From: Chthonomonadales bacterium
GTDB lineage: Bacteria; Armatimonadota; Chthonomonadetes; Chthonomonadales; CAJBBX01
DNA length: 64,000 bases
Assembly: GCA_027459625.1 (NCBI GenBank)
Contig: DAIDHP010000005.1
Location: 62,001 to 126,000 of the forward strand
Direction: 5' to 3'
Shown: positions 6,040 to 46,127 of the stretch, in pieces
Layout of the letters: every line of letters starts with the position of its first letter
Numbering within the stretch: the first letter of the stretch is position 1
Notes under the pieces: generated by a model
Database searches by the model: none
What the model was told of the DNA's origin: nothing
The model's input: the letters and a program-made list of their open reading frames with translations, nothing else
Made by a program: the position numbers and the translations under genes

Positions 6040-6062
6040 CAAATCATAAAGGAGAATAAGTG

Positions 6063-9000
6063 ATGGATTCCATAGAGACTACAGCGGAGAGGCGATACTC
6101 CATCCGCTCATGGATAAGATCAACAAAGATTCGCAGTGCATCTGCGCTGCGAAAGATCCGATTGCTCATGATGGCGATTGGTATGGCTACGCTCATGATG
6201 GCAGCCATCTCCCCTTCATTGGCGACAACATGGTACGTGAGATATGATGGCAGTGATACGGTGAACAACGGACAGAGCTGGTCCACCCCATTTCGCAGCA
6301 TAGGGCATGCGCTCCAATCCGCATCCTCTGGGGATCAGGTGCATGTCGCGACCAATCCAAATTCCGGAGGATATGTTGAAACTCTGACTGTTCCGTCGGG
6401 GGTGCAACTCATGGGGGGATACAAGGGAACGGGATCCGACCCGGATACCCAGGACCCCGTAAAATATCCCACGATTATTAACGGAACCAATAACAATGGA
6501 AACAGTGTCATATCTATTTCAAACGCAGGAATGGAAACTAGCGTGAACGGGTTCATTATCACACATGGAAGTGGTAATGATGGGGCGGGAATTTATCTGA
6601 ATGCGGCATCAGTAAAAATTCAGAACAATATTATAGAATATAATAAATGCGTGGATGGGATAAATGGAGGAGCGGGTATTTTATGTAACAACAATTCAAA
6701 CGCTATTATATCCAACAATATAATCATTAATAATATATCTGTTTATAGTAATGGTGGAGGTATTAGTTGTTCATATTCATCGCCTATCATTACCGATAAT
6801 CTTATTAAAGGAAACTATTCAAATACTGGTGGCGGTTTGTATTTCGAGTCTTCTTCCGCTACAGTTATGCGAAATCGTATTTATGGAAATGTAGCAACTT
6901 ATACTGGTGGGGCGATTGATTGTGAATACTCGCCTATGCTCATTTGCGATAATTTGATCTATGGTAATACATCGAATAGCACTGGAGGTGTGAATCTGAA
7001 TAATTCTTCTGCCATTGTCACCAACAATTCTTTCGTCAAAAACAGCTCTTGGATGTTGTGGGCCGGGGGGGCCGTCACTATGATATCAAGCAGCTTTAGC
7101 AACAATGTGGCTCATCCCAAACTGGGAAACAACATCATCACTGATAATTCATCAGGCGTATATTGCGACAAGTACACCATTCCCACCATCTCCAATAACT
7201 GTGTATATCAAAATGCGGCATATGATTACCAAGGAACAGCCTCCTCCGGCTTCGATATCAAAGCCGACCCGCTCTTCCTGGACGCACAGGATGGCGACTT
7301 CCACATTAGCGCAGGATCGCCATGCCGGGACCAGGGTTCCAACAGCTATGTTTCCGCCGGCGAAACGGACATTGACGGCGATAACAGGATCTGGCCCAAT
7401 GGAGGAACCGTGGATATAGGGGCGGACGAGTATGTGGGGGCCAGAACGGTTGTTAAGGAGTTCAGCACCTACTATGTCAATCATTCAACCGGAAATGATG
7501 CCAATGACGGCAAAAGCTGGGCCACAGCGCTGAAGACCATCACCACTGCACTTCAAACTGCTCAGCCCTGCGATCAGGTCTGGGTTGCCGCGGGAACCTA
7601 CATGGAAAACATCACCATGAAAAACGGGGTGGCGTTGTACGGCGGATTTGCTGGAAATGAAACGCTTCTCAATCAGAGAAACTGGGTGAAAAATATTACG
7701 ACGATAAATGGAAGTCAGAATGGCAGTGTGGTCACCGCAGACCAAGTTGGTTCGATCGCATCTTTGGACGGTTTTACTGTTACCAATGGTCAAGCAGATG
7801 GTGGTGGAATATATTGTAGTTCATCCTCCCCAAGTATATCAAATGATATTATCACAATGAATTTATGTTCTACAGGAATATGGGGCGGGGGCGGGATAAA
7901 TTGTACAAATTCATCGCCGATGATCTTTTCAAACACAATTATTAATAATAAAGCAAATAATTGTGATGGGGGCGGAATTTTTCTCAGTAACTCATCTCCT
8001 GTACTATCAAACAATACCATATCTGGAAATACCTCTACATATAGCGGAGGGGGTATATGTTGTAATGATTCGTTGCCTATTATATCTCGAAATATGATAA
8101 AGAATAACACAGCATACAGGGGAGGAGGCATGTATATACAGTACGGAAGCAATTTCGATATTACCGCCAATGTAATAACGAACAATTCATCTACTGGAGA
8201 TGGAGGCGGATTATATATAGACAGCTCATCCCCCGTTGTCACCAGCAATGTAATCGCATCGAACAGCGCGTTATCAGCGGGAGGAATATACCTGCATGCC
8301 TCAGCAGCCCATTTGGTGAACAATACAATCGTCTCCAATAACGCCTCCACACAATACGACGCTGGTGCGATTGAGATGTTTGACGATATGCATCAATTGC
8401 GCCCATTAATTGCAAATAACATTATCGCGTCGAATTCTTCCGGAGTGCTTCTCGATGATCCCACAAGCAGCCAGCCAGACCCGGATCATAACTGCTGGTA
8501 CAATAACGGAGGATTTAAGAACTGGAGTCCCATTTCTCTTGCGGGAGCCGGCGACTTAACGGAAAATCCGGATATCAATTCCACGTATCATCTTCTTGTC
8601 AATTCACCCTGCATCAATAAAGGTTTCAATCATACCGAGATATCCGATCCGGGGGACATTGATTTTGACGGTAATCCTAGGATCGTGAACGGTACCGTGG
8701 ATATTGGCGCTGATGAATATCAAAATAACCTGATAGGCACGGTAATAACGGTCTCCAATGTCAGCGGACAAACAGGAAGCTCCGTCACTCTGACCGCGTC
8801 ACTTAAGCGAACCGATACCAACGCTGTCATCGCGGGCAAGACCATCACGTTCAAGGTCGACAGCACTACCGTGGGCACGGCGACCACAAACTCCAGCGGC
8901 GGCGCAACACACGCCTACTCCATACCAACCAACGCTACAACGGGCAATCGCACGATCACGGCATCCTTCGCGGGGGACACGACTTACTCCGCATGCAGCG

Positions 9001-11210
9001 GCACGGGGACGCTAACCGTATCCACCACCGTTGCAACCTCCATCGTTGTAAATAACGCTTCCGGAAAGCCGGGAAGCTCCGTCACTCTGACCGCGGCGCT
9101 AAAGCGATCCGATACCAACGCTGTCATCGCGGGCAAGACCATCACGTTCAAGGTCGACAGCACTACCGTGGGCACGGCGACCACAAACTCCAGCGGCGTC
9201 GCAACACACGCCTACTCCATACCAACCAACGCTACAACGGGCAATCGCACGATCACGGCATCCTTCGCGGGGGACACGACTTACTCCGCATGCAGCGGCA
9301 CGGGGACGCTCACTGTTACAAAAGCGGCGACGACTATCGCAACCGCTCTAACAGTGCCGAATGTTTCAGGCGTGCAGGGCAAGGCGGTCAGCCTCACTGC
9401 AACGCTCAAGAGAACAGACACAAACGCTGTTGTTGGAAGCAAAACCATTACCTTCAAGGTGGACAACACCCAGGTGGGCACAGCGACCACAAACTCCAGC
9501 GGGGTCGCCACTCTCAGTTACACCATACCTTCCACCGCCGCTGCGGGAAGCCACACCATCACCGCCTCCTTTGCGGGGGACACAACTTACACAGCCAGCA
9601 GCGGCACGGGGACGCTCACCGTGACCGCAGGCTCAAAGACCATCGCCACTGCAATAACGGTGCCGAACGTTTCAGGCGTGCAGGGCAAGGCGGTCAACCT
9701 CACTGCAACGCTCAAGAGAACCGACACAAACGCCGTCGTTGGAAGCAAAACCATTACCTTCAAGGTGGACAACACCCAGGTGGGAACGGCGACTACTAAT
9801 GCAAGCGGGGTTGCCACTCTCAGCTACACCATAGCGTCCACCGCCACTGCCGGTAGCCACACCATCACCGCCTCCTTTGCGGGGGACACAACTTACACAG
9901 CCAGCAGCGGCACGGGGACGCTCACAGTTACAACAACCTCGTCAACCATTGCTACAGCGTTAATAGTGGCAGATTCCGCTGGAGGGAAAGGTCAGTCTGT
10001 GGGACTATACACTACGCTGAAACGAACGGATAACAGCGCAGGCATCCCCTCCGAAACTGTGACTTTCAATGTTGATAATGTGAAAGCAGGCGTTGCCACA
10101 ACTGATTCCAATGGCGTTGCCACCATCGAATACGCCATTCCATCCAGCTCCACAGTTGGTGATCACACCGTTTCTGTAAACTTTGCCGGTGAGGGCTCTT
10201 TTAAGGCATCTTCAAGCACCGCAAAGCTAACAGTAACCACCAACATTGCTAATCGAATTCTTCCCGCAGGTTACGCCCCAGGGGTTCAACTTGGCGTAAG
10301 CATATCAGTCAAACTTTCGAATGGCGTCCTGGCTTATGCTGTCCAGGATACGCCTCCAGCGGGTTGGATTGTGGATACTTCCTCCATCAGTGATTCAGGA
10401 GTATTTGACTCAAGCGTCGGCGAGGTTAAATGGGGTCCGTTTTTCGATTCCCAGTCACGGACATTGACTTACAAGGTCACACCTCCCTCCTCCTCCAAAG
10501 GAATGGCGACTTTCACTGGAAGTGTTGCCACGGATAATTCGGATGAGGCTATCGGAGGGGATTCCACAATAACAACTGTCACTGGAGACCATCCCGCCGA
10601 TACCAATAACGATTGGAGACTAATCATCGGAGAGGTTGTCTCCTATGCATCGGCATGGAAAAAAGGCGATAATTGGCCAGTCGGTCCGAACCCCATACCC
10701 ATTAACTATGTTACCAATGCAGCCTTAATTTGGCTGCACGGAGAGTTTTATCATTTGGATCCATCTCAACCCGCTCCGGCATGTTGGGTACCGGGGGCGA
10801 GCAAGGGATTGAGCATAGCCGAAATTCATAAGGCAAGGGCCAATCGCCATGATAGATCCGGAAGTGTTTTGAGCAAAGCCGTTATGTCTTGCAAGACGGG
10901 TTATTACATTGCTGGTCATCCCGTGCGCATGACGATTCAGGTGCATCCCGCCATTGGCTCCGGAGTATTCGCTGTCGAGGAAAAAATACCAGTGAAATGG
11001 GTTCCCATTTCCATCGGGGAGGGGGGTGTTTTTGACAAACATAACTCTGCACTGCGATGGGGACCGTTTTTCGGGAGTGCGCCAAAATCCATTGAATACA
11101 CTTTGTTGGCACCGTATAGATCGAGAGGAATTCAAAAGTTCAATGGAACGCTATCTGTTGATGGCTCCTCCATTGCAATACAGGAAAACCTAATGTCTCA
11201 ACACAAATAG
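6063..11210 (+). CDS. Giant secreted protein: two beta-helix regions, five Ig-like repeats, dockerin-like and YAVED-type modules
   Basis: 1715 residues, probably exported and surface-associated. A long basic N-terminus precedes a hydrophobic export segment at about residues 38-58. Two Asn/Ser/Gly-rich right-handed beta-helix regions (about 60-460 and 470-890) each open with T-W/Y-Y-V and a G-x-S-W phrase and end with D-I-G-A-D-E-Y, as in pectate-lyase-like adhesins or polysaccharide lyases. Five Ig-like repeats of about 99-102 residues follow (T-I-T-F-K-V-D, A-S-F-A-G-D-T-T-Y). Then come a YAVED-type module, a dockerin-like segment (A-D-T-N-N-D-W-R and G-E-V) and a second YAVED-like module. 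Start ATG 6063 has GGAG 8 nt upstream. Catalytic or adhesive function cannot be decided by eye. Confidence 0.75.
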   Translation: MDSIETTAERRYSIRSWIRSTKIRSASALRKIRLLMMAIGMATLMMAAISPSLATTWYVRYDGSDTVNNGQSWSTPFRSIGHALQSASSGDQVHVATNPNSGGYVETLTVPSGVQLMGGYKGTGSDPDTQDPVKYPTIINGTNNNGNSVISISNAGMETSVNGFIITHGSGNDGAGIYLNAASVKIQNNIIEYNKCVDGINGGAGILCNNNSNAIISNNIIINNISVYSNGGGISCSYSSPIITDNLIKGNYSNTGGGLYFESSSATVMRNRIYGNVATYTGGAIDCEYSPMLICDNLIYGNTSNSTGGVNLNNSSAIVTNNSFVKNSSWMLWAGGAVTMISSSFSNNVAHPKLGNNIITDNSSGVYCDKYTIPTISNNCVYQNAAYDYQGTASSGFDIKADPLFLDAQDGDFHISAGSPCRDQGSNSYVSAGETDIDGDNRIWPNGGTVDIGADEYVGARTVVKEFSTYYVNHSTGNDANDGKSWATALKTITTALQTAQPCDQVWVAAGTYMENITMKNGVALYGGFAGNETLLNQRNWVKNITTINGSQNGSVVTADQVGSIASLDGFTVTNGQADGGGIYCSSSSPSISNDIITMNLCSTGIWGGGGINCTNSSPMIFSNTIINNKANNCDGGGIFLSNSSPVLSNNTISGNTSTYSGGGICCNDSLPIISRNMIKNNTAYRGGGMYIQYGSNFDITANVITNNSSTGDGGGLYIDSSSPVVTSNVIASNSALSAGGIYLHASAAHLVNNTIVSNNASTQYDAGAIEMFDDMHQLRPLIANNIIASNSSGVLLDDPTSSQPDPDHNCWYNNGGFKNWSPISLAGAGDLTENPDINSTYHLLVNSPCINKGFNHTEISDPGDIDFDGNPRIVNGTVDIGADEYQNNLIGTVITVSNVSGQTGSSVTLTASLKRTDTNAVIAGKTITFKVDSTTVGTATTNSSGGATHAYSIPTNATTGNRTITASFAGDTTYSACSGTGTLTVSTTVATSIVVNNASGKPGSSVTLTAALKRSDTNAVIAGKTITFKVDSTTVGTATTNSSGVATHAYSIPTNATTGNRTITASFAGDTTYSACSGTGTLTVTKAATTIATALTVPNVSGVQGKAVSLTATLKRTDTNAVVGSKTITFKVDNTQVGTATTNSSGVATLSYTIPSTAAAGSHTITASFAGDTTYTASSGTGTLTVTAGSKTIATAITVPNVSGVQGKAVNLTATLKRTDTNAVVGSKTITFKVDNTQVGTATTNASGVATLSYTIASTATAGSHTITASFAGDTTYTASSGTGTLTVTTTSSTIATALIVADSAGGKGQSVGLYTTLKRTDNSAGIPSETVTFNVDNVKAGVATTDSNGVATIEYAIPSSSTVGDHTVSVNFAGEGSFKASSSTAKLTVTTNIANRILPAGYAPGVQLGVSISVKLSNGVLAYAVQDTPPAGWIVDTSSISDSGVFDSSVGEVKWGPFFDSQSRTLTYKVTPPSSSKGMATFTGSVATDNSDEAIGGDSTITTVTGDHPADTNNDWRLIIGEVVSYASAWKKGDNWPVGPNPIPINYVTNAALIWLHGEFYHLDPSQPAPACWVPGASKGLSIAEIHKARANRHDRSGSVLSKAVMSCKTGYYIAGHPVRMTIQVHPAIGSGVFAVEEKIPVKWVPISIGEGGVFDKHNSALRWGPFFGSAPKSIEYTLLAPYRSRGIQKFNGTLSVDGSSIAIQENLMSQHK
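8740..10237 (+). repeat. Five tandem Ig-domain coding repeats
   Basis: The segment starting ACCATCACGTTCAAGG or its close variant recurs at 8841, 9138, 9444 and 9750, giving periods of 297, 306 and 306 bp; a fifth unit is more diverged. Units 1 and 2 are nearly identical at the DNA level over long stretches, and so are units 3 and 4. This points to recent pairwise duplication inside the gene. Such repeats are prone to length variation and assembly collapse. Confidence 0.85.
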
Positions 11211-27012: not shown

Positions 27013-29826
27013 TCATGCAGGAATGAGTTTGACACTCTCCCCTTTTCTAGTTTTGAACGTGAAACGATCCCCTTGGCGTCTCTCCGCCTTATTGCCGCCA
27101 TGCAAGACGCGCACCGCCTTGCCCGCCCATGGATTTTGCATGGTGCAATCCTCGCCTTTTTCACTGAAGAGCTCCAAGTTAGTCACCATACCGTTTTTCA
27201 ATTCCGCTGATACGAGGAAAGCCCCATAGGCGCGAAGATTTCCAAACTTCGCGTCAAGCTTTTCAGGCCAGACGGGAAACAGACGCAACACCCCATCGTA
27301 ACTCTGCAGCAGCATCTCGTTCAGTGCGAGGAATCCCCCGCAGGTTTCTATTCCCCCTCCTCCGTAAAAAAGAATGAGGTTCGGATAGGCGTGGGTCGCG
27401 CATTGATCCTTCAAATGTTGCAAAATCGTTGTTGGGTCATATCCCACTCTCACGGCGGCGGTGTAGAAGGAGGAAAAAGCGTTTCCGTCAACCCAGCGAG
27501 CCATCTCCTCCACCATGTTTCGGCTGATATGGAGCAACTTGGGGTCGCTATCCAGACCTATCGCTCCCGCAGGGAAGATATGCTGCACGCCCAGATCGTT
27601 TCCATCGTTCCAAGCCATCCCTTTTTCGGTGTAACGGAATACCGTCTTGCCGTTTCTTTCCTGCAATGGATAATCGGAGAGATTGGCGAGGATATGGCGC
27701 CATTTATCTCTTTTATCCGCATCCACATTTAAAGCCGAGCTGAATCGCAACATAGCCTTGAATAACGTGTGGATAAGCCCTAAAGAGAGAACTCCGTTCA
27801 TGTCGGGTCCGGACCCTTCGTGAATGGAGTCGTCGTAATCCACATAGCGTCCGTTTTCATATCGAAGGTAGTTCTCCCAGAATGTCGCCACCTCTCTGAG
27901 AAAAGGATAGCCGATGGTTTTAAGCCATTTGATATCTTGAGTGTAATCGTAATGGGTGATGTAATCCAGAGCCGCATATGCCGCATCTGATCGTTGTCCC
28001 CAGTCCTGCCAGCCCTCCGTCATGAGTTCCCAGGGACCTATATGCGTGGGGTAGTGAACGCCTTTCCATCCATGCGTTTTCGCCATCTCTCGACCCATGG
28101 GCATGAACGAGTTAATGGCTGCGTAATAAGGATCTGCAAGATCGGCGTGGTTTGAGGAATAGACAATATAGTAAGGCGCCTCGAAGTTGTAGTTGAGGGT
28201 GTAATCCCCGTGCCAGGCTGGGGTGTCCGTGGTTAACCAGTTGCCCCATAGCCCCGGAGCGATCTTACCGGGGCGGCTGCAGCAACCGAGAATATAGAGA
28301 GCTCCGTACCAATGCTTCTCAATCAGCTTATCCGGTATCTCTATAAATGATTTGCTCCAGAATTTCCCCCACCACTTCAGATGAGTTTGATACAGATGCG
28401 TGATCTCTCCAAGCGTGATGGACTCCGCTCTCTTTCTCGCCGCCGCTTGGTGATCCTTGGCGTTCAGATCGCTCAAAATGGATGTAACCAAGTATGCGGG
28501 GCGTCCGCCTGACAATTCGAATTGGAGCGATTGTCCGTCTCGCACAACGGAGCGTGCGCCTATTACGCACGTCGCCACGGTTACGGAGCGTCCACTTGAG
28601 GAACGATGCGCATTCGCCCTCTCGGAGAAGGTGATCAGCGCCGATTTGGCGTCGCACTCCCAATTGGTCACTCGATTATTGTTTGAAGCCACCTCCACAC
28701 CGTCAACATATATGGCGATTTGAGCTCCGTTGTAGGTTCCGGTTACTAGCCGCCATCGATTCATATCAATTCTGAACGTGGTTTGAACGTATTGATCTCC
28801 CACCGCCATGCGAATATATCCGTCTGATAAGCCCAGACTGTAAGCCTTGCTCCACTCCCCTTTGCTAACGATATAATTGGCTTCGTTTGAGAATCCCGAT
28901 GTGTAAACCCAGGCGGAGATAGTTAATTCGTTCGCGAGATGCAACGGACCCAAATCGACGAAAGCCCCTTTGCCGTCGAAGCGTATCGTCTCCCCCGTTT
29001 TCCCCTGAACAGGCGAGCCATCGGTCACTCGTGCATTTGAGTGGGCGTTTTCAGGCCAGCTTAGCTCCAATCCTCTCGTCGGAGGAGAACCCGAGGCCAG
29101 CTTCCGGATCTCTTGCAGTGTCAAGGCTCTGTTGTAAATCCGCACGTCATCCAAGATGCCATCAAAATACCATCGCCCGCCGTTAAACTGCTCGCGTCCG
29201 ATATCGACATGATTATCGTTCTCTCGGATCGATTGTCGTATATCGTAATTGATGTCCGCAAAGCACGAATTGGCTCCATGAGTGGTGATCTCTGTCACCA
29301 TCAGGTTTTCGGTGTCCGCTATCCAAGTTCGCATTGCCACACTTATATCGTTTGTCGCGAAAACGCCTCTGACCTCCCCGTGAGCGATATCCTGCTCCTG
29401 ATGGTAACTTGCGCCGTTGAGGAGAGGAAAGGCGATTTGCAAGGCGCCCACCGTGATCACCTCGGGATCAACGGTTTGCCAAAAATCGTTCTTGCCGATA
29501 TGAAACGATTGGTTTTCTGGCGGACCTGAGAGAGTGACACCCACATCTCCGTTTCCCAATAACGGACCGTCAGGCATCAAATTCGTTGGTGTGTTGTGGG
29601 GAGGCTGGGTGAAAACGGCCGTATGCTTTGAGACGATATTCAAGGACGAAACTTCTGTGGTTTGCATGCGTATGATGGAAGCCTCTCCTAGTGATTGATT
29701 AGTGAGGATCGGTTCCAAGGCGAGCCCTGTCACCAAAACAGTTTTCATGAATTGGCGTCGACTTATCGGATCCATTTTGTGCGCGATTTGGATATGACGC
29801 CGATTCACATTGGTGACACGTCTCAT
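27013..29826 (-). CDS. Tat-exported GH95-like glycosidase with an inserted LamG domain
   Basis: 937 residues. The Tat signal is SRRQFMKTVLVTGLAL. The N-terminal beta-sandwich has PLLGNGDVGVTLSG and is interrupted by a LamG (concanavalin-like) domain. The C-terminal (alpha/alpha)6 barrel has GDYTLNYNFEAPYY and GPWELMTEGWQDWGQRSDAAYAA-like blocks; a Gly/Glu-rich GGGGIETCGGF follows. This resembles clan GH-L enzymes, especially GH95 alpha-L-fucosidases/galactosidases. The LamG part is out of order: its C-terminal strands (IGREQFNGG, FDGILDDVRIYNRAL) come before its N-terminal strands (GKGAFVDLG, LTISAWVYTSG). Start is uncertain: ATG 29826 is taken, ATG 29775 is possible. It lies 58 bp after the GH31 gene, probably in one operon. 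Confidence 0.72.
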   Translation of the reverse strand: MRRVTNVNRRHIQIAHKMDPISRRQFMKTVLVTGLALEPILTNQSLGEASIIRMQTTEVSSLNIVSKHTAVFTQPPHNTPTNLMPDGPLLGNGDVGVTLSGPPENQSFHIGKNDFWQTVDPEVITVGALQIAFPLLNGASYHQEQDIAHGEVRGVFATNDISVAMRTWIADTENLMVTEITTHGANSCFADINYDIRQSIRENDNHVDIGREQFNGGRWYFDGILDDVRIYNRALTLQEIRKLASGSPPTRGLELSWPENAHSNARVTDGSPVQGKTGETIRFDGKGAFVDLGPLHLANELTISAWVYTSGFSNEANYIVSKGEWSKAYSLGLSDGYIRMAVGDQYVQTTFRIDMNRWRLVTGTYNGAQIAIYVDGVEVASNNNRVTNWECDAKSALITFSERANAHRSSSGRSVTVATCVIGARSVVRDGQSLQFELSGGRPAYLVTSILSDLNAKDHQAAARKRAESITLGEITHLYQTHLKWWGKFWSKSFIEIPDKLIEKHWYGALYILGCCSRPGKIAPGLWGNWLTTDTPAWHGDYTLNYNFEAPYYIVYSSNHADLADPYYAAINSFMPMGREMAKTHGWKGVHYPTHIGPWELMTEGWQDWGQRSDAAYAALDYITHYDYTQDIKWLKTIGYPFLREVATFWENYLRYENGRYVDYDDSIHEGSGPDMNGVLSLGLIHTLFKAMLRFSSALNVDADKRDKWRHILANLSDYPLQERNGKTVFRYTEKGMAWNDGNDLGVQHIFPAGAIGLDSDPKLLHISRNMVEEMARWVDGNAFSSFYTAAVRVGYDPTTILQHLKDQCATHAYPNLILFYGGGGIETCGGFLALNEMLLQSYDGVLRLFPVWPEKLDAKFGNLRAYGAFLVSAELKNGMVTNLELFSEKGEDCTMQNPWAGKAVRVLHGGNKAERRQGDRFTFKTRKGESVKLIPA

Positions 29827-29863
29827 ATTCTCTTTCATCCAGTAATAATATAAAAGCGGTACG

Positions 29864-29885
29864 GGGGCGTGGCATGCCACGCCCC
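29864..29885. repeat. 22-bp perfect palindrome between two glycosidase genes
   Basis: Each half is GGGGCGTGGCA or its complement. It ends at the stop codon (TAG, 29887-29885) of the GH31 gene and lies 38 bp before the next start. It looks like a REP-type palindrome or mRNA-stabilising hairpin; no T-run follows. Confidence 0.7.
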
Positions 29886-32671
29886 TACGGTTGTCGTATC
29901 TCCACCCTCTCACCATGATACTCCATTACCTTATCCGCAGGTTCCGTAAAATCGTTGCCGGCGCCGTGATTCGGGCGCACCCAAACGATGCGGAAGGTGC
30001 GTTTTTCCAGCATGTCCGGGAAGCTGCCTTTTCGAGCGTCAAGCACCAAAACCCTCTCCTTGTCGTTCCAACGGATGGGAATGGTGGCGTACGCCCCATG
30101 CTCATAGTTGTAGTTGTCGTTTTCGTCCTCGTAAAGGGTGAACGCCCCATCTGCTCCCGGATAGATGCGCAGTTCGATCGGATCGCAGGGGGTTTCGGTG
30201 GAGTATTGGTCAATTGGCCCCAAGGGCAGGATCGAGCCGGTGCGAACATAGATGGGCAGCGTGTCCAACGGCGCGTCGACTTGAATGGAGTGTCCCCCTT
30301 GATGACGCTTGCCCGTCCAAAAGTCAAACCATGCGGATCCCTTGGGCGCATAAACGGACCTGGAAACGGCACCCGCCTTGATGACAGGGTTGATCATGAG
30401 CGCGGGTCCGAAGAGGTACTGATCCGCGATATCGTGCGCTTTCGCATCATTCGGGAAATCCATCACCAATCCCCGCATCATGCTGTACCCATCGTTCGTC
30501 ACCATCCACGAAACGGAATAGATATAGGGAAGGAGGCGATACCGAAGTCGGTCATACTTGATCAGGATCTTTTCCGCATCCGGTCCGAATCGCCACATCT
30601 CCTTCGGGTAGTTCGTGCCGTGAACGCGGAACATGGGGCAGAAGGATCCGAACTGGAACCATCGCACAAACAGCTCCCGGTAAGCGGGATCCTGAGGGTT
30701 GCCGCTGAAGAACCCGCCGATGTCCGTGTTCCAATAGGGGATGCCGCTGAGGCTGAAATTAAGCCCCGCCGGAATCTGTTTGGCGAAGACATCCCAGGTG
30801 CCAGTGATGTCCCCCGACCAAGTCACGGCGGAATTGCGCTGCTGTCCGGTGTATGCGGAGCGCGTGAGGATGAAAACCCTCTTTTTGGAGGTGACGGATC
30901 GCTGACCCTGGTAGACGGCGGTGGTGGTCATCAGGGGATAGGCGTTGTAGACGAACTCCCCGTATCCCGCATAGGTCTTGATATTGCGAAACTCGCCCCA
31001 AACTCCTCCAAGTTCCGGTTCCGTGGCGTCCAGCCACCATCCATCCACGCCTCGAGAGAACAACTCCTTGTTCATCTGCTGCCAGTAGAGGCGCCTCCCC
31101 AGCGGGTTGAAGGCGTCGTAATACCGGTCCCCCCCGGTGACAGGGTAAAGCACGCCTGCTTCGTCCAGTTGACGGTAGTTGGAGCTTCCCTCCTGGAATT
31201 TCGCCCACACGGAAATCATGAAGTGCATATGCTCGTCGTGAAGCTGCCGTATCATCTGTGTGGGATGGGGGTAGCGCTTTGGATCGAATTTATGCGATCC
31301 CCAAGGATACGGCGACCAGTAAAACCAGTCCTGGATGATGGCGTCGATGGGGATGCGCAGGGATCGGTACTCGCCAGCAACGCCAAGTATCTCCTCCTGG
31401 CTGTTGTAATGCTCCTTGCATTGCCAGAAGCCCCACGCCCATTTCGGGAACATGGGCGCCTCGCCGGTGAGCCACCGGTACTCCGCGATCGCGGTGTCGA
31501 GTTCCGGACCGTAGATGAAATAGTAATCGATTCCCTCGCCCACTTCGGATTTCCATGAGAGAATGTGTTGTTTGGAGGGCGGGATCCATAGCAACTGAGC
31601 CACGGCGAACCCCCCGGCTTGGAAATACTCCACTTTAATCGGATATCGACGGTTGGCTTCGAGCTTAATGCGGGCGGTGTTCACGGCGGCGGGGTGTACC
31701 GACCAGTTATCCACAAGAAGCTTGTTATCCACCCAAAGGCGCATTCCATCATCGCAAGTCGTCTGAAAACCGTATTCCCCCGCCTCACCCGTCAATATCT
31801 CTCCGGTCCAGCGCACGCTGAAGTTATCCGGACCCATGCCTTGGGCGGGAGACCCGTTCCAGTTGAAGTCGATGCCGGGATCCGTGCGGGTGGTCTGGAG
31901 GTGATCGAAGTTCTGTCCCGTGTAATACTCCCCCGTCAATCCACCCGGTTGATTTTCCGCATTGAACAGATGGGAGGGCGGGATGGTTTGAATGGCGCTA
32001 TCCACATTCACGTCCGTGATCGCGGGATTGTCCCAGAGGATGCCGTACCCCATGCTGGACATCATCACCGGGACGGCGACGTGCATGTTTTGCTGCTGGA
32101 GGTGGACGGTGGCCCCTCGATAGTTCATCAAGCCCTGCTGATGCTGTCCCAACCCGTAGATCGCCTCGCCATCCTGAAGCTGGAATTTCTGGGATACCTT
32201 ATAGGTCTTTTCCCCTTTGAACGCGGTCGGGGTGCAGCTTCTTCCGCCAGAAGGCAATTCCTTCAGGATCGGTTTGCCATGGCGATCGAAAAAGAATACC
32301 GCCCCGGTTGCGCGGTTTACATGAGCCTGAATGACGCCCGTGGAGATGATAAGCGCATCCTTGGTATCTTTATATTTCCAATCGAGAGGTTTGGGATCGC
32401 GAATGACCGAGGGAACCTTCTGGGCTGGGAAGGAGGATAACGGGGTGAATGTGACTCGGATGATTCGATCCGTGTAGACCCTCACGCGCATCCAGCCGGA
32501 ATCGGTTCTCATGCGAACCTCGTGCGGATGATGGGAGATATCCGAAACGGGGCCGTTCCCCGTATCGGTTAGCTCCGCGGAAAGCGAGTCGCCCGTTGAT
32601 AAAGCGGATAGGAGCCCAAACGCCCCGGTGGTGAGTAGAAATTGTCGCCGGTTAAACCTTGTATCGCTCAT
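29885..32671 (-). CDS. Tat-exported GH31 glycosidase with PA14 domain (alpha-xylosidase-like)
   Basis: 928 residues. The Tat signal has NRRQFLLTTGAFGLLSAL. The N-terminal GH31 beta-sandwich carries an inserted PA14 domain (about residues 240-370: GGLTGEYYTGQNFDHL, then FQTTCDDGMRLWVDNKLLVD and YPIKVEYFQ). The barrel has the nucleophile motif GWWLDATEPE and the acid/base region TWSGDITGTW; the C-terminal part has beta-domains with RTGSILPLGP. Several GH31 alpha-xylosidases acting on xyloglucan carry PA14 at this position, which suggests that activity, but substrate is inference. ATG 32671 is chosen because AAGGA lies 8 nt upstream and the Tat motif then starts at residue 8. First gene of a two-gene operon with the GH95-like enzyme. 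Confidence 0.88.
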   Translation of the reverse strand: MSDTRFNRRQFLLTTGAFGLLSALSTGDSLSAELTDTGNGPVSDISHHPHEVRMRTDSGWMRVRVYTDRIIRVTFTPLSSFPAQKVPSVIRDPKPLDWKYKDTKDALIISTGVIQAHVNRATGAVFFFDRHGKPILKELPSGGRSCTPTAFKGEKTYKVSQKFQLQDGEAIYGLGQHQQGLMNYRGATVHLQQQNMHVAVPVMMSSMGYGILWDNPAITDVNVDSAIQTIPPSHLFNAENQPGGLTGEYYTGQNFDHLQTTRTDPGIDFNWNGSPAQGMGPDNFSVRWTGEILTGEAGEYGFQTTCDDGMRLWVDNKLLVDNWSVHPAAVNTARIKLEANRRYPIKVEYFQAGGFAVAQLLWIPPSKQHILSWKSEVGEGIDYYFIYGPELDTAIAEYRWLTGEAPMFPKWAWGFWQCKEHYNSQEEILGVAGEYRSLRIPIDAIIQDWFYWSPYPWGSHKFDPKRYPHPTQMIRQLHDEHMHFMISVWAKFQEGSSNYRQLDEAGVLYPVTGGDRYYDAFNPLGRRLYWQQMNKELFSRGVDGWWLDATEPELGGVWGEFRNIKTYAGYGEFVYNAYPLMTTTAVYQGQRSVTSKKRVFILTRSAYTGQQRNSAVTWSGDITGTWDVFAKQIPAGLNFSLSGIPYWNTDIGGFFSGNPQDPAYRELFVRWFQFGSFCPMFRVHGTNYPKEMWRFGPDAEKILIKYDRLRYRLLPYIYSVSWMVTNDGYSMMRGLVMDFPNDAKAHDIADQYLFGPALMINPVIKAGAVSRSVYAPKGSAWFDFWTGKRHQGGHSIQVDAPLDTLPIYVRTGSILPLGPIDQYSTETPCDPIELRIYPGADGAFTLYEDENDNYNYEHGAYATIPIRWNDKERVLVLDARKGSFPDMLEKRTFRIVWVRPNHGAGNDFTEPADKVMEYHGERVEIRQP

Positions 32672-33306
32672 GATGCGAATCCTTGTCGCGGATGAATCGC
32701 CAAGACGGTGCAACGCCGACTTCGACGTTTGAAAGTGTATTGCGGGTCTGAATAAATGATAATAACAATGATTGCGGTGGAAGCGAGTTACATGGTGAAA
32801 GAATAGCACAAAACAGGCGAATATTGGAACGCGGCGGATGGGGCCGTGATGTGGCAAGGGGTCGGTAACGCGAGGATAGAATAGCCATCATTGTTTGATT
32901 ACTGCATACGAGGAATGAAGGAATATGTTTTATTAAGAAAAATAATAAAATCTATATTTTGGTGTGGATTATCCTTTTATTTATTAAACACATACTTAAA
33001 AACGAAGTAAGATTATTAAGTATGTCTATATTTTTAAATATTATGGATCCTCGCTGTTTAGTGTGGGTATACGACAGGCGGGTATCTCTGCATTGAACTC
33101 AATCCATCCCGAAAAACGATGTCCAATGGAGTTTGCCGATACGCTTGCAAAACCCGAAGGAGGATGTGTTGCGGGCGAACCGAGCTATAAATATTCAACC
33201 CCTTTAGGGGTTGGGGGATGGCTTTCAATCCATTTGGGATATCGTACCTCGGGATTCATCCCGATGGGAATACGGAGCGGAACCATGATAAACGCCGTCT
33301 TATTCC
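32672..33306. other. Long spacer with several palindromes
   Basis: 635 bp. The left part holds the GH31 leader; 32930-33040 is very AT-rich. Two short hairpins follow: CAACCCC/GGGGTTG around TTTA (33196-33213) and CGGGAT/ATCCCG around TC (about 33249-33262). No intact gene was seen. The palindromes sit just before a truncated membrane-protein gene, so this may be a site of past insertion or deletion. Confidence 0.4.
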
Positions 33307-43519: not shown

Positions 43520-43685
43520 GCGCACGTTCTCCAACTGTGTTCATTTTGAGATTCAAAAAAGGTGGGCGGAGCGCGGATGGAAGTAATTCCAAGGTGGTTC
43601 CATTTTAGGAAGATTTTCGATAAGTTAAATACTACGCGGTTTTCAATAATGCTTCACTTTGAGAACGAGAGCGACAAACACCCGA

Positions 43686-46127
43686 ATGAGCGCTGAAAAA
43701 CCCCAGTTGAATCGTCTTGAGATTATGCGCGCCCTGAAATACTCCAACTGGGACGCCGTGTACGCCACTGCATTCGTCATTCTAACTGGCGGAGCTTTTC
43801 TAACTGGTTTCGCTCTTTATCTCAGGGCGAACGACTTCTGGATGGGGATCATCTTCTCCGTCCCCATGCTGGCGGGACTGTTTCAAATTGTCTCCTCCTA
43901 TTTCGTGGAGTTGAGCGGAAATAGAAAGAGATTCTGCGGTACCTATTCTTTGATAGGTCGAATCCTTTTTCTGCCCATCCTTTTAATCCCTTTCATAGTT
44001 CCTCCTCATTTTCGGTTCCTTGTTTTCGCCATACTTTTCCTGCTATCCAATGTGCTTCTTAGCATCACGCAACCGGCTTGGTCCTCATGGATATCCGATC
44101 TGGTTCCTCAGGATATGAGAGGGCGTTATTTTGGTAAGCGGAATATGCTAGGCGGACTGACTACTCTTATCATCTCCATGCCTGCGGGTTGGTTTCTGGA
44201 TCAGTCCACAAAGTATCACCGTTTTCCGGAGAGAATCGGGTTCGCCTGTTTGTTCGCCACCGCAGTTGTGTGCGCTTTGATGAGTTTTGCGGCGTTGATG
44301 CATCAGGCGGAGCCTCCCATGGTTCGGAGCGATGTGAACCACACAGCCGGCTTGAAAGGGGCGCTCTCCTTCTATCGAATGCCATTTCTGGATCGTGAGT
44401 TTCGCGCATACGTATTGTTTGGCGGCTTGTTCGCTTTCTCCCAGTTCTTCGCCGCGCCATTTTTTCTCGTGTATCAGTTGGAAAAACTAAAATTCAGTTA
44501 CACCATCATCCAGTTATTCACGGTATACACTAGCCTCTTATCCATGATATCCTTGCCCTTGTGGGGTTACATCGGGGACAAGTTCGGGAACAAACCCATT
44601 ATTGCTATCTCAACCGCTGGGGTGGCGCTATTGCCTCTCATATGGGATTTCACTACGCGCAAACATCTTTTGATGGCGTACTTGATTGTTACGTTCATCA
44701 ATACCGCATCAGGGGTGTTCTGGGCGGGTGTGGGATTAGGGCAGTTCAATCTTCTGATAGCATCCACTCCTATGAAGAACAAATCCGTTTACGTTGGGGC
44801 GTGGTCCGCAGTAGTGGGATTGGCGGGGGGTGTCGCCCCGATTCTAAGCGGAATAATGATGACAGCCTTTAAGCCGGTGCATTTTGTCGTCGAGGATATC
44901 CTTGTCGGGAATTACCAGATCGTGTTTTTCATCAACACCATCTTCCGCTTTGTGGCGCTCGCCTCTTTGAAGCCGGTGGTGGAGAGGGGCTCGGCAAGCG
45001 CCAAAGAGGTTTTGGCACAGCTCGGCAGCGCCCCGGTTGGCTCCTGGAAGCAAATTAGACGCTTGCAAAAATCGTCTAACGAAGGGGAGAAACTGGAGGC
45101 GGCGCAATCATTAAAAAGCAGTCGCACCACGTTGGCTGTGGATGAACTCGTAGCAGCTTTGGACGATCCCAGCCTGCATGTGCGTGAAGAGGCGGCGATT
45201 GCGTTGGGGGAGATCAGGGATATTCGAGCGACACCCGCCTTGCTGTCGAAACTCGCCGATCCTGCGTCAGGTATCGTGGAGGAGTGCGCACTGGCGTTGG
45301 GCTCTATCGGGGATTCCCAAGCGGTGAATGCCTTGGGCGAGGTTCTTGAAACGGGTGAGACCATCGATAGTCTCGCCGCAGCCAAAGCCATCGGGAAGAT
45401 AAGATGCGCTGAGTCTCAGGAGTTGCTTCTTAAAGCTTTGAATTCCGAAACGACAAAAAACAAGCCGGGATTGGCGGAGGCTTGCATTCGAGCGTTGGGG
45501 AATTCAGGATCGGAACGGGTTGCGAGAGAGCTTGAACAGTATTTGGAAAACGGTAATGCATCCTTGCAACGCGCCGTTGTGCGGGCATTGGGGGATATCG
45601 GCTCCGCGAGATCCGCTTCCGCATTGATGAAACTCTTGGATAAGCAAAACGATTCCGCCATGATCTCACGCATTGCTGTATCGCTGGCGATGTGCGGCGC
45701 CTCGGAATCCATCCCAAACCTGTTGGCGTCGCTGGAAGTCGTTCACTCTCCCGTGGCGCGAAAACAGATCATTAACGCGATCGGGAACCTGGTAGGCGTC
45801 GAGGATCGGCTCTATCCGAGTCTCGCAATGGAAAGTTACGATAGAGATCAAGCAGTGTCAAGGATTTTTCAGGAGATGCTCAGGAAAGACCGAGCGGCAA
45901 GCAGGGAATCCTTTAGCGCCAAGAGAAGATACCGATCCCTTCAATTGGCGGCGGAACACTATCAGGACGGGCGGTTCGTGGAGGCTGCGCAGATACTGAT
46001 ACGATATGCAAGCGATCAAAAGGAATCAAAAAGCGTTCAGGCTATCGTCGACTGGATGGAGAAATGGACGCGCGAGGGCGTGATGGGTTCGGAGGAATTC
46101 CTGTTATTGCTCTTGGTGTTCAAATAG
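43686..46127 (+). CDS. MFS transporter fused to HEAT-like repeats
   Basis: 813 residues. Residues about 20-430 form a 12-helix major facilitator domain; the loop after helix 4 has the MFS-type DLVPQDMRGRYFGKRN and GDKFGNK occurs in the second half. The soluble C-terminal half (about 450-700) contains seven or more PBS-lyase-type HEAT repeats such as VDELVAALDDPSLHVREEAA, IALGEIRD, ALGSIGDSQAVNALGEVLE and VRALGDIGSARSASALMKLL. The last 60 residues may be another helical-repeat segment. ATG 43686 is chosen; TTG 43659 is possible and neither has a clear Shine-Dalgarno. Substrate unknown; the repeats probably bind a partner protein on the cytoplasmic side. Confidence 0.8.
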   Translation: MSAEKPQLNRLEIMRALKYSNWDAVYATAFVILTGGAFLTGFALYLRANDFWMGIIFSVPMLAGLFQIVSSYFVELSGNRKRFCGTYSLIGRILFLPILLIPFIVPPHFRFLVFAILFLLSNVLLSITQPAWSSWISDLVPQDMRGRYFGKRNMLGGLTTLIISMPAGWFLDQSTKYHRFPERIGFACLFATAVVCALMSFAALMHQAEPPMVRSDVNHTAGLKGALSFYRMPFLDREFRAYVLFGGLFAFSQFFAAPFFLVYQLEKLKFSYTIIQLFTVYTSLLSMISLPLWGYIGDKFGNKPIIAISTAGVALLPLIWDFTTRKHLLMAYLIVTFINTASGVFWAGVGLGQFNLLIASTPMKNKSVYVGAWSAVVGLAGGVAPILSGIMMTAFKPVHFVVEDILVGNYQIVFFINTIFRFVALASLKPVVERGSASAKEVLAQLGSAPVGSWKQIRRLQKSSNEGEKLEAAQSLKSSRTTLAVDELVAALDDPSLHVREEAAIALGEIRDIRATPALLSKLADPASGIVEECALALGSIGDSQAVNALGEVLETGETIDSLAAAKAIGKIRCAESQELLLKALNSETTKNKPGLAEACIRALGNSGSERVARELEQYLENGNASLQRAVVRALGDIGSARSASALMKLLDKQNDSAMISRIAVSLAMCGASESIPNLLASLEVVHSPVARKQIINAIGNLVGVEDRLYPSLAMESYDRDQAVSRIFQEMLRKDRAASRESFSAKRRYRSLQLAAEHYQDGRFVEAAQILIRYASDQKESKSVQAIVDWMEKWTREGVMGSEEFLLLLLVFK

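Follow-up and report, generated by a model that had tools for sequence, protein, structure and literature searches.

A complete, circularly permuted LamG domain in the N-terminal β-sandwich of a predicted GH95-like glycosidase

The locus and its enzyme

The window (the whole stretch of DNA analysed, 64,000 nucleotides) carries a GH95-like glycosidase gene with the following features, all on the minus strand.

27013–29916, minus strand: GH95-like glycosidase ORF, 967 residues as listed; matches to PF22124 and PF21307 and a weak TAT_signal match
29224–29634, minus strand: host N-terminal β-sandwich, segment 1 (about residues 95–231), preceding the insert; weak PF14498 match at residues 116–151 and alignment with the LamG-free L036, L011, L010 and L037
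28672–29223, minus strand: entire permuted LamG insert (about residues 232–415); predicted single closed fold, dN/dS 0.06 against L009
29107–29229, minus strand: LamG C-terminal part, first in the chain (PF13385 positions 112–150); profile match
28975–29106, minus strand: linker fusing the original LamG C- and N-termini (ASGSPPTRGLELSWPENAHSNARVTDG), with a reduced β1 region; sequence comparison
28651–28974, minus strand: LamG N-terminal part, second in the chain (PF13385 positions 2–115); profile match
28342–28671, minus strand: host N-terminal β-sandwich, segment 2 (about residues 416–525), following the insert; alignment with LamG-free relatives
27661–28305, minus strand: GH95-type (α/α)6 catalytic domain (PF22124 match, residues 538–752); N-x-N and acid Glu conserved
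27031–27306, minus strand: GH95 C-terminal domain (PF21307, residues 871–962); Pfam match

A twin-arginine motif, MDPISRRQFMKT, is found at residue 48 of the listed frame, where nt 29775 is the likelier start, and on this motif the enzyme is judged to be of an exported type. The catalytic profile Glyco_hydro_95_cat (PF22124) was matched with an E value of 1.5e-29 (103.6 bits against a cut-off of 27) and Glyco_hydro_95_C (PF21307) with 4.8e-10, also over its cut-off. The N-domain profile PF14498 reached 18.3 bits, below its cut-off of 27.7, and for this reason the protein is called GH95-like here.

GH95 has been described as a catalytic domain flanked by two β-sandwiches, without a LamG domain (PMC10154630). 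The window protein resembles the GH95 enzyme AfcA in its succession of β-sandwich, (α/α)6 barrel and β-sandwich, but differs in the LamG insert, in the PF14498 score and in a Glu that replaces a conserved Asp. The general acid Glu (E566 of AfcA) and the N421/N423 pair, whose catalytic roles have been described in AfcA (PMC10154630), are conserved in the window protein. The N-x-N pair is present in half of the window-type group (five of ten members, the window protein included) and the other five have D-x-N. In the barrel's C-terminal motif (GGGGIETCGG near residue 850 of the window protein), all ten window-type homologues have Glu in place of the conserved Asp, as do many LamG-free relatives; most GH95s with an N-terminal LamG retain Asp. 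This replacement hints at a separate enzyme family, and α-L-fucosidase or a related activity is a putative assignment for this predicted enzyme.

The neighbouring gene (29885–32857, minus strand) encodes a GH31 enzyme in which a PA14 domain separates the N-terminal domain from the TIM barrel, so that two glycosidases with inserted accessory domains lie at this locus; as listed, the GH31 ORF shares about 30 bases with the start of the GH95-like ORF. Elsewhere in the window, an 822-residue protein (43659–46127, plus strand) joins an MFS-transporter-like part (PF07690) to HEAT repeats (PF13646, PF03130), an unusual fusion, and a 1716-residue protein (6060–11210, plus strand) combines a β-helix with five Ig-like Big_3_5 stretches.

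Order and completeness of the LamG insert

An earlier, sequence-only reading had placed C-terminal LamG motifs ahead of N-terminal ones at 28672–29211. These coordinates proved correct, and all of the motifs were found in the ORF, on the minus strand, which that reading had left unstated. Their order is DIGREQFNGGRWYFDGILDDVRIYNRAL (about residues 236–266), then GKGAFVDLG and LTISAWVYTSG, then AIYVDGVEVASNNN (about residues 315–415).

Laminin_G_3 (PF13385) matched the window protein in two stretches with a total E value of 2.4e-23. When the window's own genome was searched, the two pieces scored 32.7 bits (positions 112–150) and 59.1 bits (positions 2–115), both over the cut-off of 27.6; on the contig they lie at C5:91107-91229 and C5:90651-90974, the window being C5:62001-126000. 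As positions 112–150 stand ahead of positions 2–115, the canonical strand order of PF13385 is absent and the insert is filed as a permuted variant and not as a standard member of the family. The profile is covered essentially once, and the circular permutation is therefore complete. A local LamG profile of 200 positions, built from canonical domains, gave the same picture, matching with positions 157–199 and then 24–155, and separate half profiles placed the C-half ahead of the N-half; a search of the window protein with these N-half and C-half profiles found no extra LamG half. The permuted order is far beyond what chance would give. The cut falls in the loop that follows the "YVDG.xVAS" hairpin and precedes the 'xIGR' strand. 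Thus the insert is like Laminin_G_3 in that every profile position is present and an all-β single fold is predicted, but unlike it in order: the three solved structures that match best by sequence have the N-part ahead of the C-part, as is canonical.

Predicted structure

An AF2 model of the insert (199 residues, 28642–29238) showed one closed, mainly-β domain with a mean pLDDT of 88.4 and a pTM of 0.88, in which the strands and helix of the early C-part were mostly at pLDDT 91–97. The alignment had 42 rows: the window, L009 (a homologue from the same genus), tandem-array fragments that span the C-part of a copy and the N-part of its successor, and isolated LamG halves. The array fragments and halves are from phage and partly feed the known fold into the model; these rows were retrieved from viral contigs with a consensus LamG query, and the window insert itself, used as query against the viral contigs, gave no match. 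A full-length AF2 model from four alignment rows had a pLDDT of 42 and was discarded.

Foldseek aligned the longer part of the insert model with domain 4 of AbnA (3.3 Å over 137 columns) and with the LamG domain of PAPP-A2 (2.3 Å over 111 columns). Foldseek aligns in sequence order, and TM-scores against LamG-like solved folds were near 0.4–0.5, as would be expected if the rest of the domain were placed elsewhere along the chain. The insert is thus predicted to be a single jelly roll formed from both segments, as the sequence-only reading had anticipated for a permuted domain, and two partial folds were not seen.

The AF2 model is of a monomer and its closure is compatible with a domain-swapped dimer too, in which the early C-part would complete the LamG of the neighbouring subunit. 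LamG-like domains often oligomerise, and the linkers of some members would permit such a swap. Against this, the monomer closes at the pTM given above, the short linker of the homologues L013–L015 does not favour an exchange, and intramolecular closure is easy because both new termini are in a single loop. We regard an intermolecular swap as very unlikely.

A still less probable explanation is that two tandem LamG remnants, each a separate partial fold, are decaying within the enzyme. Tandem LamG arrays do exist and present the same local order across the border between two domains, and the window linker resembles an inter-domain linker. The LamG parts, however, form one complementary set, with the halves never both doubled, in the 54 classified GH95-clan ORFs concerned; AF2 predicts a single closed fold; and in L013–L015 the linkers are of only a few residues. 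The insert is also under strong purifying selection: dN/dS between the window and L009 was 0.06 for the insert and 0.08 for the catalytic part, rough values as dS is near saturation, suggesting that the insert is about as constrained as the catalytic part. A tandem pair lacking its outer halves, which the sequence-only reading had offered as its other explanation, is better seen as the likely evolutionary route than as a competing structure; the full β1 region in the linkers of L115, L079 and L117 points to this route.

Conservation and the empty site

The homologue search proposed with that reading recovered the same order in L009 and in eight further ORFs. L009, from an independent MAG of the same genus (isolate MAS4.bin79), is 81% identical over 938 residues without a gap. 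The eight ORFs share the insert at the same place, at about 30–50% identity and under three family codes: three are from genomes of another genus of the same family (L013–L015, about 49%) and five fall under two other family codes (L016–L019 and L038, about 30%). The permuted LamG is accordingly conserved over independent genomes, as is expected of a natural circular permutant and not of an artefact. Although the genome is a draft of 114 contigs, an assembly error or a recent rearrangement swapping two gene segments, which the sequence-only reading had named as a way in which its claim could fail, has a negligible probability, because the order is repeated without a gap at 81% identity in the independent MAG, as well as in the three genomes at about 49% and the five at about 30%.

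The LamG-free homologues L036, L037, L010 (Chitinophaga) and L011 (a Verrucomicrobia MAG) can be aligned both before and after the insert, and L036 is 57% identical over the catalytic part. As these relatives align across the gap, they define the empty insertion site. The earlier proposal of a permuted LamG entering through a loop of the host β-sandwich is thus supported by single complementary profile coverage, by homologues of several genera, under three family codes, that share the order, by relatives that close the gap, by the confident single-fold prediction and by a free-standing permuted copy (L104, below). The idea that the host strand behind the insert (SALHFGDRALPYAG in L019, for example) is a second LamG C-part was rejected, since the LamG-free L036 has the corresponding strand.

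A family of permuted LamG domains

A second permuted LamG was found in the same genome (L062, G000:C2:27108-27617), in a 971-residue enzyme with DUF5703_N (PF18961) and a GH95-type barrel. It is inserted after the sandwich strand SWVFV and before the barrel helix RGYLLQNYVQACGGRG, a site that differs from that in the window. DUF5703_N proteins of this kind share the loop cut and the GH95-type barrel with the window protein, but their LamG follows the last sandwich strand (SWVFV) and precedes the first barrel helix (RGYxLQRYxxACxGRG), and their LamG subfamily has the motif GRIxDKxTxGxxDGFLLDTxPGxxLRLIVG, which is absent from the window copy. In the DUF5703/GH95 LamG subfamily this motif is found in canonical and permuted copies at three different attachment points; its retention in both orders and at all three points suggests a function of the LamG itself and not to packing against the host.

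Permuted-LamG profiles were run against 291 genomes of the phylum and 289 sampled from the phylum of L011 (Verrucomicrobiota), and these scans together yielded dozens more ORFs with the same cut. Among 105 classified GH95-clan ORFs, 42, from the two phyla, have the DUF5703-type permuted insert and 10 the window-type insert. In L104 (G007:C168), a GH95 protein, the permuted LamG is at the N-terminus, directly behind the signal peptide and outside any host domain, and in L144 (G031:C81) it is the last domain, at the extreme C-terminus. Canonical-order LamGs were N-terminal in 12 of the 105 and C-terminal in three, and none was found inside the host enzyme among these 105 ORFs. A pattern of order by location in the GH95 clan, permuted inside and mostly canonical at the ends, is no more than suggestive, as permuted copies supplied the search profile and the ORFs share a common descent. 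Three ORFs that had at first seemed permuted (L114, L163 and L164) proved to be tandem, canonical or doubtful, and neither the careful tree nor the test includes them; the partial L125 was kept unclassified.

Origin of the permutation

In a tree of the catalytic domain, from which the insert was excluded, the DUF5703-type carriers formed one clade (100 SH-aLRT) and the window-type carriers lay far from it, with LamG-free lineages between. In a tree of de-permuted LamG sequences the window-type group fell with generic canonical LamGs whereas the DUF5703-type group joined the canonical LamGs found in GH95 enzymes (split 100/99). A single clade of all permuted LamGs was rejected (AU p = 0.0011, to be read with caution as the groups were named after the first tree). 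The cut in this loop thus probably arose two or more times. For the window-type insert by itself, one clade is not rejected by the LamG tree (p 0.42), and a single clade of its carriers is disfavoured by the host tree (p 0.014), which losses would explain too. For this insert the host trees require one gain and two losses, or else two separate gains.

The linkers of L115, L079, L117 and L116 are long and retain a full LamG beginning (GLLGDWTFD...), that is, β1. This region is reduced in the window and almost absent in L013–L015, where a few residues remain. Such a series is the trace expected of tandem duplication, trimming of the outer halves and then shortening of the junction, and from it we infer permutation by duplication. 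The starting point would be a tandem LamG pair, or a stretch cut from an array, in which the first copy loses its N-part and the last copy its C-part. The old termini would thereby be fused by a linker, shortened later, and the new termini, opened between the 'YVDG.xVAS' hairpin and the 'xIGR' strand, would join the host loop.

Role and significance

LamG-like domains are commonly accessory glycan binders in secreted glycosidases. By analogy of fold, the window LamG would most likely be an accessory module for glycan binding, tethered next to the catalytic barrel by two linkers. We are confident in the overall reading of the locus as encoding an exported GH95-like glycosidase with a complete permuted LamG in a loop of its N-terminal β-sandwich, which likely originated by duplication and most likely serves as a glycan-binding module. 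A wider proposal, to which we give slightly less than even credence, is that the permuted LamG constitutes an independent module with two or more origins by cuts in the same loop, that in the GH95 clan order follows location as a rule, and that permutation makes the jelly roll insertable or orients its binding face when it is tethered within a host.

The LamG fold and the principle of circular permutation are already known, and permutation in the concanavalin/LamG fold is a textbook matter of single cases. Natural permutation in the same broad fold is seen in concanavalin A relative to other legume lectins and in circularly permuted glucanases. The permutation of concanavalin A is a post-translational ligation, whereas in the window the gene itself is permuted and the domain is of LamG type and housed in another domain. 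The open-licence literature, to which the search was directed, yielded no relevant paper on LamG with circular permutation, on GH95 with LamG or on DUF5703, and no conserved family of permuted LamGs in the GH95 clan, inserted repeatedly and probably of more than one origin, was found there. What the present analysis adds is such a family, crossing phyla within one enzyme clan, with canonical sisters at the termini of related enzymes and probably a second origin by the same cut, so that how and why domains permute becomes directly testable. There is also a practical consequence, as domain annotation splits or overlooks permuted LamGs (Pfam gives two fragments) and a sequential structure search covers just the longer part.

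Other orders in viral and N-terminal LamG domains

A different permutation was observed in LamG proteins from viral contigs (L173, L176, L177, L186–L188 and L192 from IMG/VR, and also L165, L168, L169, L174, L178 and L181). Here strands 37–199 come first and β1 (GLVGYWKFDEGSGTTA) last, often at the extreme C-terminus of proteins of 240–250 residues; the tandem arrays L165 and L174 start without β1 and end with a spare β1. The N-terminal LamGs of GH95 enzymes (L128, L132, L154, L157, L160 and relatives) have no initial β1 and carry a conserved tail, PGVLGDWxF...IxPVAGTLxL, behind the C-part. The best tail scored 8.4 bits and a profile comparison gave P 0.0009, a weak hint that these domains may share the β1-last permutation.
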